A stretch of 64,000 bases of DNA from Thermotoga caldifontis AZM44c09 (lineage in GTDB: Bacteria > Thermotogota > Thermotogae > Thermotogales > DSM-5069). The first letter of the stretch is position 1, and every line of letters starts with the position of its first letter. The notes under the pieces were generated by a model that worked only from the letters and a program-made list of their open reading frames with translations, was not told where the DNA came from and ran no database searches. Below, one piece after another: positions 24,281 to 31,798 of the stretch. Where the stretch lies: the NCBI RefSeq assembly GCF_000828655.1, contig NZ_AP014509.1:1054001-1118000 (forward strand), in the 5' to 3' direction. The translations under genes were made by a program, and so were the position numbers.

Positions 24281-24588
24281 CTCCTTCCTCTCTGAGAGGT
24301 CACTCAATCGAAAGAGTGAAAAATCAATTGTTTCGCATCGCCGATCGATACTGAACAATGCGCATCTGCGCTAAGCTGTTCAACCAGAGCGTCAGTCACT
24401 TTTGAAGAGGATTGACAGCTTTTCGGCAACGAAGCAGACTTTTCTTGTCTTCAAGCCGTCGACTTCGAATTTCTACAGTTTCATTTATTCAGGGTATGTT
24501 TTCCAGAGAGCTCTTTCATGCTATCAGCCGCTGCGAGAAATTTCCACTTCGCCCGATTCACGGCGGTGTTTCTGGCGCGTCTGGACAA
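24281..24588 (+). other. Intergenic region without recognised content
   Basis: About 300 bases between two terminators. Open frames here lack ribosome binding sites and known motifs. No tRNA, repeat or promoter was recognised. Confidence 0.6.
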
Positions 24589-24618
24589 CAAAAAAACCCG
24601 GCCACACGGCCGGGTTTG
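24589..24618 (-). terminator. Terminator of the Tct/TRAP operon
   Basis: On the minus strand AACCCGGCC-GTGT-GGCCGGGTT runs into TTTTTG, 17 bases after the stop of the TRAP binding-protein gene. Confidence 0.93.
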
Positions 24619-24634
24619 ATTTTCATCACAGTGT

Positions 24635-25597
24635 TCACTGTCTGAGAACTTCGTCCCACGTCGTGACGGGCCACGTGGTTTTGAAGAGTTCTTCCACGGC
24701 GGGAGCTGCCAGTTCTCTGATCGCCTTCAAAGCCGCTTCGTCCAGCTGTATGACCTTCATGCCCTTTTCCTGCAAAAACTTGATGATGTCTCCTTCGCTC
24801 GCTTTGAGCTTTTCGGTCGCCCAGGTGCACACTTCGTCCATGACGCGGTGCACCAGCTGTCTTTCTTCGGGGGTCAATCTCTCGTAGGCGGTTCTGTTCA
24901 TCATGATCCAGCCAACACCGCACTGGTGGTTGGTTATGATGAGGTAAGACTGCACTTCGTAGAGCTTGAACGAAGATATCTGTGTCACATCGCCCTCAGA
25001 AGCTTCCGCTCTACCTTCCTTCAAAGCTTGATAGAGCTCGGGCAGAGGAACCGGTACCGCCTTGGTTCCGATCGCTTCCCAGATTTTGACCCAGGTGGGC
25101 ACAACCGGAAGCCTCAGTTTCAAATCCTTGATGTCCTCTGGGCCACGTATCGGCTTGTTCGCGGTCATCTGTCTGTAGCCACGGTAGACCGTACCAAGAC
25201 AAACCATGTTGCCTTTCTCTTCGATTATCGCCCTGGCTTTTTCGCCGATCGGTCCGTTCCAGACCCTCAGGAAGTGCTCGTAATCTTTGATGACGAACGG
25301 AGCGTTGACGAAGAAATATTCGGGTGCAAAGACTTCCACGGGTCGACCACCTGTGAACTGCAGATCGACGATCCCTTTCGCGCACAGGTTGTTCGCCTCT
25401 TCTTCCGACACCGCGCCGATCTGGAGTTCCACAACGATCGTCCCGTTCGTCGCAGCCTCGATCTTTTCTTTGAACTTCTTCATGGCCTCTGCGAGAATGT
25501 GACCTTCCTGGAACGGTGTGGTCGCCTTCAAAACGATCTGGAATCCGAACAGTGCGGTGACGATCAGCGCGAGTGAAAGAACTAAGAATTTCCTCAC
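24635..25597 (-). CDS. TRAP transporter substrate-binding protein (DctP family), orphan
   Basis: A 320-aa exported solute receptor. GTG 25597 is chosen (AGGGGG eight bases upstream), giving the signal peptide MRKFLVLSLALIVTALFGFQ. Family blocks are KATTPFQEGHILAEAMKKF, VDLQFTGGRP, YRGYRQMTANKPIRGPEDIK, DLKLRLP (the conserved Arg that binds the ligand carboxylate) and PLPELYQALKEGRAEASEG. DctP proteins normally work with DctQ/DctM membrane subunits, but none lies here; instead a TctAB transporter is encoded in the same operon. Last gene before the terminator. Confidence 0.92.
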   Translation of the reverse strand: MRKFLVLSLALIVTALFGFQIVLKATTPFQEGHILAEAMKKFKEKIEAATNGTIVVELQIGAVSEEEANNLCAKGIVDLQFTGGRPVEVFAPEYFFVNAPFVIKDYEHFLRVWNGPIGEKARAIIEEKGNMVCLGTVYRGYRQMTANKPIRGPEDIKDLKLRLPVVPTWVKIWEAIGTKAVPVPLPELYQALKEGRAEASEGDVTQISSFKLYEVQSYLIITNHQCGVGWIMMNRTAYERLTPEERQLVHRVMDEVCTWATEKLKASEGDIIKFLQEKGMKVIQLDEAALKAIRELAAPAVEELFKTTWPVTTWDEVLRQ

Positions 25598-25645
25598 AAA
25601 CACCACCCCCTATCGGTGAAATTGCCCTTCGATACACCTCTCACG

Positions 25646-26824
25646 TCATTGAATGAGAACCTTCTTTCCCAGCTCCGCAGAAACGTAAGCTGCGTACATC
25701 ACCAGCATGGTGTCTTTTGCGAGATCGAAACCGCTCAAAACCGTTCTGTCCTCCAGCACAGCCATGGCAAAATCTTTCATTTCCTGTGGATAACCCCTCG
25801 TCCAGAATTCATCGGGTGATGGGAACGTGTAACCTGCCTTCGTTTCGAGTTTCTCACTGATGTATTCGTCACCCCAGACGGTTTCGTTCGGAGCGAAGGC
25901 CACCATCGCGCTGTTCGGTGTGATGTTGGCCACGATCATGCCCTTTGAACCGTAAAGCTCGAGCCTGTTCTTCACACCACCCAGGCTCACGTCCGTTGAG
26001 AAAACGGTGGCTCTCGAACCGTCTTCGAACTCCAAGATCACTATCGACCAGTCTTCAACGTCGTACCACGAACTCACAACGTAGCACGGTTCGTTCTCCA
26101 GACTCTTCATTTTCGTGAGGTTTGCAACGCTGGCCAGCACCGATACAGGTTTGATGGGTTTTCCGTCTCTCGCGTATCCTTCATAGTGTTTCATGTGGAT
26201 CACGGTGGCTATGGGGTGCGAACCCAAACGCATCAGGCTGCCGCCACCTGAAGTTCTCCACCTGCGAGAGTACGTTGCCTGAGAACCTGAATGACTGCAT
26301 TCAGCCCGGAGTTCGAAGACCACCATGTTCGAGGCTTTGAGCATCCTTTTCATCTTCTCTACTGCAGGTGCGTACACCCAGTTCTCCGCGTACATGAACT
26401 TGACGTTTGCGGTCTTCAGTTTCTGTTCTAAGAGCGTCACTTTTTCCTTCACTTTGTCGTACATGTGTGTTTTTGGGATACTGCCGACTTCTTCAACGTC
26501 AGGTTTGTCTTCTCCAAAGTAACCTGTGAGGGGCTTTTCGCAGATCACGTGTTTTCGATTTTCAGCCGCGCAGAGTATCACATCGTCGTGAAGGTTCGTG
26601 GGAGTGCAGACATCCACAACGTCGATTTCCGGGCTGGAACAGAGCTGTTCGAAGTTGTCGAACACGTGGGGGATCCCATACTCTTTCGCGAACCTTTCGG
26701 CGTTCTCTTTGTGTCCAGCACAAACGCCCACCACGTCGACGAGCTGATAGTTTTCTTTGAACGCCGCCATGTGAATCTTCGCTATGAAACCGGCACCAAC
26801 GATACCAACCCTTACCTTCTTCAC
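25646..26824 (-). CDS. Gfo/Idh/MocA family oxidoreductase
   Basis: A 392-aa NAD(P)-dependent dehydrogenase. The N-terminal Rossmann fold starts VRVGIVGAGFIAKIHMAAF, with DVCTPTNLHDD near residue 75 and CEKPLTGYFGE near 98 (the EKP motif). The C-terminal half carries GGGSLMRLGSHPI (G-D/H loop) and strands of the family's open beta-sheet. Substrates in the family are sugars, inositols or sugar acids. GTG 26824 follows GAGGGGG by eight bases. Fourteen bases separate it from the M24 gene, so it is in the Tct operon and probably acts on the imported compound. Confidence 0.9.
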   Translation of the reverse strand: MKKVRVGIVGAGFIAKIHMAAFKENYQLVDVVGVCAGHKENAERFAKEYGIPHVFDNFEQLCSSPEIDVVDVCTPTNLHDDVILCAAENRKHVICEKPLTGYFGEDKPDVEEVGSIPKTHMYDKVKEKVTLLEQKLKTANVKFMYAENWVYAPAVEKMKRMLKASNMVVFELRAECSHSGSQATYSRRWRTSGGGSLMRLGSHPIATVIHMKHYEGYARDGKPIKPVSVLASVANLTKMKSLENEPCYVVSSWYDVEDWSIVILEFEDGSRATVFSTDVSLGGVKNRLELYGSKGMIVANITPNSAMVAFAPNETVWGDEYISEKLETKAGYTFPSPDEFWTRGYPQEMKDFAMAVLEDRTVLSGFDLAKDTMLVMYAAYVSAELGKKVLIQ

Positions 26825-26837
26825 GTGCACAACCCCC

Positions 26838-27935
26838 TCACAGAACGAGCATGTCGGGTTTGATGAACGAGACACCTTCCACTTCGAGTTTCAAGATCGG
26901 GAAAACGAAAGGTTTCGTGATCATGATGGGACCTTTTTCGGTGACGATGAAACCGTCCTCCGACTTCGTACCGCTGATCGTCGGATTCCAGCAGAAAGCC
27001 TGGTTCCTTCTTACTGTTTGCTGGCAGTCCGGTGTGACCCTTATGTCGCGCGCGTAATAACCCATCGGACCACCCTGATGGTGCCGTTTCCATTCATCGT
27101 GGTAACCTCTTTTCTCGTACTCTTCGATCGCTGCGAGCACAGGCACGTTCATCTTTTCTCCGATCTTCGTCTTCGCTATCATCAAACATTCGATTTCAAC
27201 GTTTTCTCTGTACTGTTTCAGCAAATGCTTCGGTGGTTCTCCGAAATGAACCATCCTGGTGACGGTCGTGATCAATCCTTTGTACCTCGCGTTGACGGAG
27301 ACCATCACGAGCCGTTCTACTTTTTTCATGGTGGGGATGGGGTGTCTGTACAGTTTTGCTCTTTCGTCGGCTGCGACCATGAAACCTGTCGGATCGATCC
27401 TGTACTTCCAGAGTTCCGCGCTGATCCGTCCTGCTATTTCGGCCTCCACATCGCCGGGCCTTGTGAACAGAAGGACGCTCTCCAGGGCCCTGGAAAGTTT
27501 TTCTCCAAGGTACAGATAGCGTTCTATCTCAGCGTCTGTCAGTTCGTATCTGAGCTCGTTGAACTCCGATTCGACGTACACCAGGCCAGGTACAGGAGTG
27601 TCACAACCGACCTTTTCACCGGCGATCTTTTTAACGATCTCCAGCTCCTTGTTTTCATACCATTCGTAGGAAACGATCTCAAAGCCCAGTTCGCCCACTT
27701 CTTCGTCCTTCATTCTCGGCGCCTCGATCGCGTTGGCGATCAGATAGCAGTTGTCTCTGGTTACGAGCACCGAACACACACCCATCTCGGTGGCTATACC
27801 CACCATGTTCAATCCGCCGGCCGTGATCCAGGAAAAGTTAGGCTGCTTTTTGATGAGCATCGCGACTAAGCCTTTTCTGTCGAGGAACTCTCTGACACGG
27901 TTCAGTTTGATCCGCACTTCTTCGTTTCTGGTCAT
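26838..27935 (-). CDS. M24 family (aminopeptidase P / creatinase-like) protein lacking metal ligands
   Basis: A 365-aa pita-bread-fold protein. The N-terminal creatinase domain (residues 1-135) precedes the M24 domain. Family landmarks are RHPIPTMKKVERLVMVSVNA (His198), YKGLITTVTRMVHFGEP and KRHHQGGPMGYYARD. In active aminopeptidases the first two metal Asp residues fall in VDFGA and sDITR; here the matching positions are SVNA and TTVTR, so the two Asp are replaced. This points to a creatinase-like, metal-independent hydrolase. Its ATG overlaps the TctA stop by 4 bases. Operon context suggests it cleaves an imported amide or guanidino-type compound, which is inference. Confidence 0.82.
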   Translation of the reverse strand: MTRNEEVRIKLNRVREFLDRKGLVAMLIKKQPNFSWITAGGLNMVGIATEMGVCSVLVTRDNCYLIANAIEAPRMKDEEVGELGFEIVSYEWYENKELEIVKKIAGEKVGCDTPVPGLVYVESEFNELRYELTDAEIERYLYLGEKLSRALESVLLFTRPGDVEAEIAGRISAELWKYRIDPTGFMVAADERAKLYRHPIPTMKKVERLVMVSVNARYKGLITTVTRMVHFGEPPKHLLKQYRENVEIECLMIAKTKIGEKMNVPVLAAIEEYEKRGYHDEWKRHHQGGPMGYYARDIRVTPDCQQTVRRNQAFCWNPTISGTKSEDGFIVTEKGPIMITKPFVFPILKLEVEGVSFIKPDMLVL

Positions 27936-29425
27936 GATCTCGCGGCCTCCTTTTTCGAGGATCTGTAGGCTCCAAGCAAGGAAAGGGTCACTGAAACGAA
28001 GGCAGCCAGAAGCAAAGTCAGAGAAATTGGTCTTCTGAACAGGATCGTCCAGTCGTTCTTCGCGATGAGCAGGGTCCTGTTCAGGTTCTGTTCCGCCATG
28101 GGTCCGAGGATCAAGCCCAGCACCAGTGGTGGCATCGGAAAACCTGCCTTTCTCATCAAATAACCCAGAACGCCAAAGCACAGCGCAACTGCCACATCGT
28201 ACACGCTGTTTCTGAGCGAGAATGAACCTATAATGCACAATGCAAGGACGATCGGCATGAGTACTTCATCTTTGATCTTCAGAATGTTCGGGGCGAGTAT
28301 CGAGGAAACGAAACCCACCGCGAGCATCATGAACTGAATGATGAACCATCCCGCGAAGAACGAGTAAACCACCCTGGGCTGCTGGGTGAACAACAGTGGG
28401 CCGGGGCGGATTCCGATCAGTACGAACGCACCCAGCATCACCGCGGTGACGGCATCCCCGGGGACACCAAGGGATAGTGTTGGTACCATCGCTCCACCCG
28501 TCACGGCATTGTTGGCAGTTTCACAGACGGCCACACCTTCGAGTGCACCCTGACCGAATTTTTCTTTGTTCTTCGACCATCTCTTCAGCTCGTTGTATGC
28601 CAGGAAGGTTGCGATCGTACCACCTGTGCCTGGTAGAACACCTATCAGAGTACCGATGATGATTCCAACGATGATGGGAACGACCAGGCTCTTCATTTCT
28701 TCCCAGCTGAGCAACAGTTGACCCAGAGAAGTGGTGGTCTGAACTGGTGGGGTTCTTTTCTCAAGTTTGTCCAGAACCTCCGAGACGGCAAAAACACCGA
28801 TCATGACAGGTAGAAAATCGAAACCGTTGGCGAGGGCATCTATTCCAAGTGTTAGGCGCTGAGAGCCGGTCACGTTGTCGATGCCTATAAGGGACAGAAG
28901 CAAGCCTATGAGCCCAGCGATCAAACCTTTGATCAAATCCTTTCCAGAAACGCTCGCAATGATGGTGAGTCCGAAGACAGCCAGCGCGAAGTATTCGGGT
29001 GGCCCAAACTTGAGGGCGAATTTGGCAAGTAAAGGAGCCAGAAACACCATACAGATACCACTCACAAGGCCGCCGAAGAATGAGCCGATCAGTGCTGCAG
29101 AAATGGCTTTGCCCGCTTTGCCCTGCTGTGCGAGTGGATAGCCATCGATGACTGTGGCGGCCGCTGAAGGTGTGCCGGGAGTTCTCAGAAGGATTGCGGA
29201 GATGGAACCGCCGAACATCGAAGCGCAGTACATGCCGGTCAGCATGAGCAGAGCTGTCTCGGGCTTCATGTAGTAGGTGAACGGCAAGAGCAGAATTATA
29301 CCCATTGAGGACGTCACGCCCGGCAGTGCACCCACCACTATGCCGCTCGCGACACCGATCAGCATGATCAACAAGTTGGAAGGCATCAGAGCTGTTTTAA
29401 GTCCCTCCAGCCAGTAACTGATCAT
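27932..29425 (-). CDS. tctA: Tripartite tricarboxylate transporter large membrane subunit TctA
   Basis: A 497-aa polytopic protein of the TctA family. Diagnostic blocks are VGALPGVTSSMGIILLLPFT, MYCASMFGGSISAILLRTPG, GGSISAI/NTPG-like TPSAAATVIDGYPLA, and LPGTGGTIATFLAYNELKRW plus LGVPGDAVTAV in the second half. It forms the transport channel with TctB and uses TctC as receptor, importing carboxylates by an ion gradient. RBS GAGGTG. Twelve bases downstream of tctB. Confidence 0.95.
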   Translation of the reverse strand: MISYWLEGLKTALMPSNLLIMLIGVASGIVVGALPGVTSSMGIILLLPFTYYMKPETALLMLTGMYCASMFGGSISAILLRTPGTPSAAATVIDGYPLAQQGKAGKAISAALIGSFFGGLVSGICMVFLAPLLAKFALKFGPPEYFALAVFGLTIIASVSGKDLIKGLIAGLIGLLLSLIGIDNVTGSQRLTLGIDALANGFDFLPVMIGVFAVSEVLDKLEKRTPPVQTTTSLGQLLLSWEEMKSLVVPIIVGIIIGTLIGVLPGTGGTIATFLAYNELKRWSKNKEKFGQGALEGVAVCETANNAVTGGAMVPTLSLGVPGDAVTAVMLGAFVLIGIRPGPLLFTQQPRVVYSFFAGWFIIQFMMLAVGFVSSILAPNILKIKDEVLMPIVLALCIIGSFSLRNSVYDVAVALCFGVLGYLMRKAGFPMPPLVLGLILGPMAEQNLNRTLLIAKNDWTILFRRPISLTLLLAAFVSVTLSLLGAYRSSKKEAARS

Positions 29426-29437
29426 TCGATTCGCACC

Positions 29438-29887
29438 TCACAGTGAGAACCTTGGCAAAGGTATTTTGAATATGATCGTGAAGACATAGTAGATCGCGAT
29501 CGAAGTGACCACGCTCAGAACCGCGTTCAGCAGGATCTTCTTTGAGCCAAACACGTACATCGCGAAGAACAGGAGTGGCCCTGTTGTGAGGATGAATCCA
29601 AGTTTCTTGAAGAGATAGACGTACAGAACGAATGAGACGGTGAGGCCGACGAGACTGAAGACGAAACTGGAATCGATTCGAGAACGTGCGGCGCGTTCTT
29701 TTTTCGACAGCAACGCGCGCACTATCAAAAGCACACCGCAGATGATCAAACATACCGTGACGAGCCTCGGAAAACCGGCCGAACCAAGCCCGATCCTCGG
29801 TTTTCTCATCCCGATGGTGCTCAAGAGAAAGATCAGACCTACGAGCGACACGATTGCGCCAGAGAGTACGTCACTTCTCTTCGACAT
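29438..29887 (-). CDS. tctB: Tripartite tricarboxylate transporter small membrane subunit TctB
   Basis: A 149-aa protein with four hydrophobic helices (SGAIVSLVGLIFLLSTIG; RLVTVCLIICGVLLIVRAL; SLVGLTVSFVLYVYLF; ending in LSVVTSIAIYYVFTIIF and IPLPRF). The helix layout, the RIGLGSAGFPRLV loop and the closing LPLP-like IPLPR motif are typical for TctB. It lies directly between tctC and tctA, as usual. Confidence 0.92.
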   Translation of the reverse strand: MSKRSDVLSGAIVSLVGLIFLLSTIGMRKPRIGLGSAGFPRLVTVCLIICGVLLIVRALLSKKERAARSRIDSSFVFSLVGLTVSFVLYVYLFKKLGFILTTGPLLFFAMYVFGSKKILLNAVLSVVTSIAIYYVFTIIFKIPLPRFSL

Positions 29888-29903
29888 GGCACATCACCTG
29901 AAG

Positions 29904-29923
29904 CCCCGCCCCGAAGGGCGGGG
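29904..29923 (-). promoter_or_regulatory. Intercistronic hairpin with UUCG loop, tctC-tctB
   Basis: On the minus strand CCCCGCCC-TTCG-GGGCGGGG is a perfect 8-bp stem with an extra-stable UUCG tetraloop and no T-run. Such hairpins behind binding-protein genes stabilise the upstream message or partly attenuate transcription, giving more receptor than membrane subunits. Confidence 0.75.
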
Positions 29924-29930
29924 AACGTGA

Positions 29931-30890
29931 TCATTTACCGTACTTTTCGCCGACCTTCTTGATCTTCATCAGATTCTCCCAGAAGGCGTTTTGTTCTCGA
30001 ACGAATCTTGTAAATGTTACTGTATCCATGTAGTGGAGCACGTTTCCCATTTCCTTCGCTTTCGCTATGAACTCAGGGTCGTTCATGCATTTGTAGAAGA
30101 TGTCGTGGAGCGCCCGAACGATTTCAGGTGGTGTTCCTCTCTGTACGGCCACACCTCTCCACATACCCAGCGTGAAATCGTAGCCAAGTTCTCTGGCGGT
30201 CGGAACGTCCGGGAACACGCTGAGCCTCTGTGTGCCCAGTACCGCCAGACACCTCAGCTGGCCGGCCTGAACCTGTGGCACACCTTCCGGGGCGGCAGCC
30301 ATCACAGCGTCGATGTGACCTGCTACGAGATCTGCGATCGCCGGAGCTCCACCGTTGTAAGGCACGTGAATGAACCTCACACCCACGAAGTCTTCGAACG
30401 CGAGTGCAACCAAATGGTTCCCACCACCGGCACCACCGTTACCCATCGTGACCGTTTCGGGGTTTTTCCTGGCGGCGTTCAGAAGATCTTCGAGCGTTTT
30501 GTAAGGCGAGTTGGCGTTGACCAGGATGTAACTTGGATCGTTGACGATGTTGATCACAGGCACGAAATCGTCCACAGTGAACTTCACTTCGCTCCAGTGG
30601 ATCTTCGTTATGATCGGTGTGGCCAGCGACAGCAAAGTGTAGCCGTCAGCAGGGGCTTTCAGGAACTCCATCGTTCCGGTCACTGCACCCGCGCCGGGAA
30701 TGTTGTTGACCACGAGTGGCTGGCCGTTGGCGTACTTTGGAAAAACGGATGCGATGGCTCGGAACAGTAGATCTGTAGCACCACCAGCCGACCAAGGTAC
30801 GATGATCGTGACAGGTCTGGTTGGAAAGTTCACCTGTGCGAGCGCAAGGACACCGATGAGAAGCAATGCGAGCAGTGCCTTTGTCCTCAT
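29931..30890 (-). CDS. tctC: Tripartite tricarboxylate transporter receptor TctC
   Basis: A 319-aa exported solute-binding protein (Bug family). Signal peptide MRTKALLALLLIGVLALAQV, then the family start FPTRPVTIIVPWSAGGATD, NIPGAGAVTGTMEF, MGNGGAGGGNHLVALAF, VPYNGGAPAIADLVAGHIDA and a YAVQRGTPPE-like block (VAVQRGTPPEIV). Bug receptors bind carboxylates through the SAGG and GAGG loops. GGGGAGGTG precedes ATG. First gene of a six-gene operon ending at the terminator near 24.6 kb. Confidence 0.95.
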   Translation of the reverse strand: MRTKALLALLLIGVLALAQVNFPTRPVTIIVPWSAGGATDLLFRAIASVFPKYANGQPLVVNNIPGAGAVTGTMEFLKAPADGYTLLSLATPIITKIHWSEVKFTVDDFVPVINIVNDPSYILVNANSPYKTLEDLLNAARKNPETVTMGNGGAGGGNHLVALAFEDFVGVRFIHVPYNGGAPAIADLVAGHIDAVMAAAPEGVPQVQAGQLRCLAVLGTQRLSVFPDVPTARELGYDFTLGMWRGVAVQRGTPPEIVRALHDIFYKCMNDPEFIAKAKEMGNVLHYMDTVTFTRFVREQNAFWENLMKIKKVGEKYGK

Positions 30891-31135
30891 GAATACACCT
30901 CCCCACGTTTTGGAAATATTTTTTTCAACGGACTCTCATCACATTCAAAACAAAGAAGGAGCTTATTTTACTGATTTTGTCAGATCCAAACTGACGTTAG
31001 GGGTCCGGTAGCTGTATCGTACTTGTCAAAAAAATTTTATCTCCAACGGCACAGATTTGTGCACACCTCAAGTTTGCAAAACGGTTGCTTGTAGTTTACG
31101 CAAAAATGAAGATGGCTGGGTGCGGTGCATTAGAT

Positions 31136-31798
<663 letters not shown>

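Follow-up and report, generated by a model that had tools for sequence, protein, structure and literature searches.

Introduction

Tripartite tricarboxylate transporters (TTT) combine a periplasmic receptor, TctC, with the membrane subunits TctB and TctA, and tripartite ATP-independent periplasmic (TRAP) transporters combine a DctP receptor with DctQ and DctM. To our knowledge, each such receptor is usually assumed to serve a single permease family. Here we describe an operon of Thermotoga caldifontis AZM44c09 in which the two types meet. It lies in a window of 64,000 nucleotides (contig NZ_AP014509.1, positions 1,054,001 to 1,118,000 of the forward strand; positions below are counted from the first letter of the window) and carries a complete set of TTT genes together with a gene for a TRAP-type receptor, DctP. 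We propose, tentatively, that DctP is a second receptor of a sugar-acid-type import operon and may dock on TctBA.

Exchange of receptors between transporter families has been considered before. A 2018 review considered whether TTT membrane subunits could work with receptors from other kinds of transporter, to explain TctA proteins that lack any TctC, and for the orphan TctC (Bug) receptors a shared permease, signalling or a foreign permease has been proposed (PMC5812351). In Bordetella, citrate-loaded BctC docks on BctE (PMC5812351, PMC9602780). In 2025, TAXI-GltS provided strong evidence that a TRAP-type receptor can work with a foreign carrier, and the same report discusses elevator mechanics as probably common to TRAP, TTT and GltS carriers (PMC12344293).

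Like a TTT, the operon has adjacent tctC, tctB and tctA genes in the classic order, with enzymes downstream. TctC is usually, if not by strict definition, the sole receptor type of these systems, whereas here DctP is added as the last gene in eight of eight operons. Its profile match, fold and two arginines mark the added receptor as a genuine DctP, and its nearest relatives found are haloarchaeal TRAP receptors; unlike a TRAP system, however, the unit has no DctQ or DctM, and none is left over in the genome. TAXI-GltS (PMC12344293) is the nearest precedent, as in both cases the gene for a TRAP-type receptor is conserved beside a secondary carrier other than DctQM. In that system a TAXI-type receptor is the only one encoded beside GltS, whereas TctBA already has TctC, and here two genes separate tctA from dctP. 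No receptor-permease fusion was present in the eight Thermotogota operons. Receptors likewise outnumber permeases among the orphan Bug proteins (PMC5812351), but those are TctC, while the surplus receptor here is a DctP tied to one operon. In full-text searches of open papers, a corpus with subscription papers mostly outside it, no listed title or beginning of an abstract described a DctP receptor in a TTT operon. With two receptors, one permease and no competing lone DctQM, the operon offers a compact, conserved thermophile system for testing receptor exchange. Should DctP indeed supply TctBA, both the prediction of ligands from operon context and the counting of surplus receptors would have to be revised.

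Results and discussion

A DctP gene closes a conserved TctCBA operon

Between 30890 and 24635, the minus strand carries six consecutive open reading frames (ORFs) in head-to-tail order, and all six proteins score above the Pfam cut-off. The first three encode TctC, the TTT receptor (29931–30890, 319 residues; PF03401, 205 bits; best sequence match among solved chains, 4x9t, E = 2.7e-59), the small membrane subunit TctB (29438–29887, 149 residues; PF07331, 78.4 bits) and the large membrane subunit TctA (27932–29425, 497 residues; PF01970, 534 bits). They are followed by a creatinase/M24-like protein without the usual metal ligands (26838–27935, 365 residues; PF00557, Peptidase_M24, 37.7 bits; PF01321, Creatinase_N, 30 bits), a Gfo/Idh/MocA-family dehydrogenase (25646–26824, 392 residues; PF01408, GFO_IDH_MocA, 96.7 bits, with C-terminal Gfo/Idh domains) and the DctP-type (family 7) periplasmic receptor (24635–25606, 323 residues as listed; PF03480, 194 bits; NF037995). 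The tctA gene overlaps the M24-like gene by four bases (27932–27935), and the remaining intergenic gaps are short. No DctQ or DctM gene was found within the operon. Directly 3' of dctP, on the same strand, lies an intrinsic terminator with a 10-pair stem and a T tail (24594–24617).

An earlier, sequence-only reading of the window had placed TctCBA, the M24-like protein, the Gfo/Idh dehydrogenase and DctP in one unit without DctQM. The Pfam matches bear this out, its coordinates of 30890 to 24635 were exact, and the strong terminator hairpin at 24617–24594 agrees with the transcript end that it predicted at 24.6 kb. The same reading had considered an internal promoter ahead of dctP. In a weak scan of 24300–31500, no promoter-like site was found on the minus strand between tctC and dctP; the sites on that strand lay upstream of tctC or within the preceding gene. 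As their number (3, versus 3.8 expected in shuffles) equals that given by shuffled sequence, the result is to be read as mere absence.

Conservation of the six-gene order, for which the sequence-only reading had called, was then clear from the relatives. Among 103 Thermotogota genomes, 50 have DctP matches and nine, including that of T. caldifontis, have an ortholog (at least 66% identity; the next best match has 32%). Eight of the nine orthologs are in the Thermotogota family of T. caldifontis, across three genera, and all eight lie in identical operons of six genes in the same order. Because it recurs in all seven other family genomes with a DctP ortholog, this order is far beyond chance. 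The gap before dctP measures 33–60 bases across the operons, and a hairpin directly follows the gene in all eight, its sequence differing between genera. Orthologs of DctP, TctA and the M24-like protein co-occur in these eight genomes and are jointly missing from three others of the family, G056, G061 and G065 (completeness 71%, 81% and 99%, respectively). An additional contig scan with short exact peptides gave four relatives, one of them an ortholog (the same as that of G064, and counted once). The survey of DctP beside TctA covers Thermotogota, and a restriction of the arrangement to the family is therefore not claimed. Two further Thermotogota genomes, G066 and G051, have TctA and DctP within about 6–12 kb of each other, and were set aside since each of these DctP proteins has its own DctQM.

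The dctP reading frame is intact in all nine orthologs. Pairwise ratios of non-synonymous to synonymous substitution (dN/dS) for dctP were 0.094, 0.042 and 0.048, from the three pairs used (the other three had saturated dS and are excluded), and fall within the range of tctC and tctA; ratios are quoted for these three genes because some rows for the M24-like and Gfo/Idh genes have upstream ORF extensions. DctP is under purifying selection and is therefore not a decaying relic.

DctP is a TRAP receptor by ancestry and fold

DctP has TRAP receptor ancestry. In a tree of 59 DctP sequences, which carried a long-branch warning, the nine orthologs grouped together (100/99), with four haloarchaeal receptors as their neighbours on a common branch (100/100); the split that separates these four has 91/67. 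All four haloarchaeal relatives are encoded in ordinary DctPQM operons, and three of them share with the orthologs a SEG-x-x-x-QI-x-SF stretch. The N terminus of DctP, judged by eye, resembles a signal peptide. An AlphaFold model of moderate confidence (mean predicted local distance difference test score, pLDDT, 68.7) matched TRAP receptors with Z of about 22 and a root-mean-square deviation of 3–5 Å over 220–255 residues. The search with this model confirms the TRAP receptor fold, and the match does not reveal the ligand.

Arginines R145 and R165, which correspond to HiSiaP R127 and R147, are present in nine of nine orthologs and in all 50 other DctP sequences (the HiSiaP numbering is consistent with an alignment of SiaP). 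As the predicted substrate filter, these residues fit a carboxylate ligand. We also considered a loss of TRAP docking residues at the positions of HiSiaP D58 and S60, which are described as docking positions (PMC9352664). These positions vary too much among TRAP-linked receptors to be informative, position 58 being R in 16 of 50 non-orthologs.

The genome holds no spare DctQM

The T. caldifontis genome (G000; a single contig of 2.01 Mb) encodes four DctP, three DctQ and five DctM with near full-length matches; two more DctM matches, in frames of 452 and 897 residues, are weak and partial. Three of the five DctM adjoin a DctP and a DctQ, and the other two, fused DctQM proteins, follow TAXI-type receptors (one Pfam-confirmed, the other assigned by sequence and place). 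Since each of the five DctM has its own receptor, there is no spare DctQM in this genome, and a lone DctQM as the partner of DctP is rejected for it. The sequence-only reading thus stands in so far as it saw TctCBA and a DctP without a DctQM partner in one unit, and its alternative that DctP serves a remote TRAP system, in the form of a lone DctQM, is not supported; nor was a receptor-less DctQM pair, which it had named as evidence against its own view, present elsewhere in the genome. The three resident DctP receptors share just 26–29% identity with the operon DctP.

A similar balance was observed in the relatives. In G058, G059, G062 and G063, as in T. caldifontis itself, the number of separate-type DctM equals that of DctP minus the operon copy, and G065, which lacks the operon, has three of each. 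One DctM of G060 is cut by a contig end, so that its receptor is not visible, and contig ends also divide one DctPQM of G064. G057 has an additional DctM of 362 residues, N-terminally short and without adjacent DctQ or DctP (L111, 5757–6845). Neither the G060 nor the G057 DctM is an intact spare pair. A further DctPQM of G057 has its DctM split over two frames (L119, 4864–7514), and these TRAP systems appear to be decaying.

A solitary ortholog outside the family

The ninth ortholog (66% identity) is in G089, a genome of a different family, where it stands alone between rmuC-like and gpsA-like genes (named by eye; L072, 9473–10438). It is the only DctP of this genome, which has no DctM, no TctA and no M24 ortholog. 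Contamination was considered as its origin and is not supported by gpsA: the gene on this contig is 76% identical to that of G091 and 72% to that of G095, both of the same family as G089, as compared with 57% to that of T. caldifontis. As gpsA is thus closest to the family of G089, the contig is not foreign. Neither rmuC nor DctP was found beside gpsA in the stretches of G091 and G095 that were read, and hence the place of the G089 gene is not shared there. Gain by transfer is possible. Retention of this ortholog in a genome without DctM indicates that DctP does not need DctQM; the same genome lacks TctA, and therefore provides no evidence that DctP needs TctAB.

Gene neighbours of relatives suggest a sugar acid

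Two of the four haloarchaeal DctP genes have mannonate-dehydratase and UxaA-type genes as neighbours, and a third has a mannonate-dehydratase gene alone. Near relatives of TctA on plasmids lie beside alginate lyases in one case and beside 2-dehydro-3-deoxygalactonate genes in another (two of the four contexts read). Similarly, Thermotogota relatives of the M24-like protein are encoded near tagaturonate epimerase, KduI and DctPQM in G002, and near KduI and DctPQM in G098. By analogy with these neighbours of DctP, TctA and M24-like relatives, and given the arginines, the operon cargo is probably a carboxylate, with a sugar acid as the best guess.

Role of DctP in the operon

In the tentative model that we prefer, the six genes would form one transcription unit for the import and catabolism of a carboxylate. 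TctC and TctBA would be the importer, and the Gfo/Idh dehydrogenase and the metal-less M24-like protein would act on the cargo in the cytoplasm. TRAP-derived DctP would have been added to it as another periplasmic receptor. Most likely, DctP would bind either a further, related acid or the same acid with a different affinity, and pass it on to TctBA, a presumed elevator carrier like DctQM. Docking on TctBA appears the most likely single mechanism because, within the family, DctP has the operon as its one constant partner, because there is no spare DctQM and because elevator mechanics would be shared. The wider claim, that TctBA takes two unrelated receptors, TctC and a TRAP-derived DctP, and hence that receptors have been exchanged between tripartite families, is slightly more doubtful, and the retention of DctP in G089 without either permease points to a further role.

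Several observations weigh against this model. TctC is intact and conserved like DctP, and TctBA therefore already has a receptor. The other seven TctA loci of the genome have no DctP. Conversely, DctP persists in G089 without TctA, which makes TctBA less likely to be its sole partner and leaves room for another use. The glutamate at the position of HiSiaP E172, a contact of the QM elevator, is kept in eight of nine orthologs, and would suit docking on DctQM equally well. With respect to the ligand, one of the four haloarchaeal contexts does not clearly point to sugar acids, the other two of the four TctA contexts are not clearly of the sugar-acid kind, and the assignment draws on neighbours of relatives with 32–47% identity.

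An intact, solitary ortholog in a genome without DctM or TctA would also be expected if DctP, once loaded with the operon substrate, acted as a sensor by docking on a sensor kinase or chemoreceptor, or if it buffered that substrate in the periplasm, and the docking of loaded BctC on BctE provides a precedent for such signalling. We consider this a serious, if less likely, rival, as the receptor is the last gene of a catabolic operon and the six-gene unit contains no sensor kinase, chemoreceptor or regulator gene (the rest of the genome was not searched for sensor genes). Sharing of a resident DctPQM permease, with DctP as its alternative receptor, is likewise a serious rival, though somewhat less probable still. 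Three complete DctPQM systems are available in the genome, the interface glutamate is largely kept, the DctP clade groups with DctQM-linked haloarchaeal receptors, and the short lone DctM of G057 and the cut DctM of G060 could be viewed in the same light; against this, T. caldifontis has no receptor-less DctQM, its resident receptors are distant from the operon DctP, and G089 keeps DctP without any DctM. That the nearest relatives found carry DctQM next to DctP is what a passenger would show, that is, a relic of a TRAP operon that lost DctQM, which merely happens to have survived as the last gene of the unit. Purifying selection, intact frames in all nine orthologs and a conserved position before the terminator across three genera make this explanation highly improbable.

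Enzymes of the operon

The M24-like protein has replacements at four of the five metal-ligand positions of its family, which we take to be Asp, Asp, His, Glu and Glu: they are S213, T224, G289 and W316, and only E326 is kept. The identical loss was found in all 15 aligned sequences, including that of T. caldifontis, from Thermotogota, haloarchaea and Pantoea, and HHQGG and WNP motifs are invariant in the same 15. The shared ligand loss and the invariant motifs together suggest that these proteins form a separate, probably non-metallo branch. A fold model of the protein (mean pLDDT 39, from two sequences) was not used. Some of its relatives (L107–L109, L130–L135) are encoded near sugar-acid genes (KduI, UxaE) or GMC/SDR oxidoreductases.

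A paralog of the Gfo/Idh dehydrogenase (61% identity) directly follows a second TctCBA set of the same genome, at about 1757–1761 kb and outside the window (L143, 3676–7845). As a Gfo/Idh gene thus follows another TctCBA, TctCBA with Gfo/Idh looks like a core by gene order, and the M24-like protein and DctP look like additions. The gene next to this paralog, on its far side from the second TctCBA, appears to be dihydroorotate-dehydrogenase-like. With eight TctA/TctC systems, the genome is strikingly rich in them for its small size of 2.0 Mb; family relatives that have any TctA have 2–8.

Putative signals upstream of tctC and dctP

Upstream of tctC, a block on the minus strand, GATAAAATTTTTTTGA (31026–31041), is invariant in four of four genus members, and its surroundings diverge among the same four. 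It overlaps a weak sigma-70-like site at 31063–31034, and is likely to be the promoter or operator of the six-gene unit, as judged from its conservation. Rfam matched only a downstream tRNA. The gap between the Gfo/Idh and DctP genes (25607–25645) holds, in the T. caldifontis genome, only a weak five-pair hairpin, which overlaps the ribosome site. DctP probably starts at a GTG at 25597, three codons inside the listed ORF, on the basis of the spacing from the ribosome site as read from the sequence. The same gap contains GAGGTGTAT, which is not followed by an ATG; identical letters stand before the start of tctC. Six of the eight operons share GGTGTATC.

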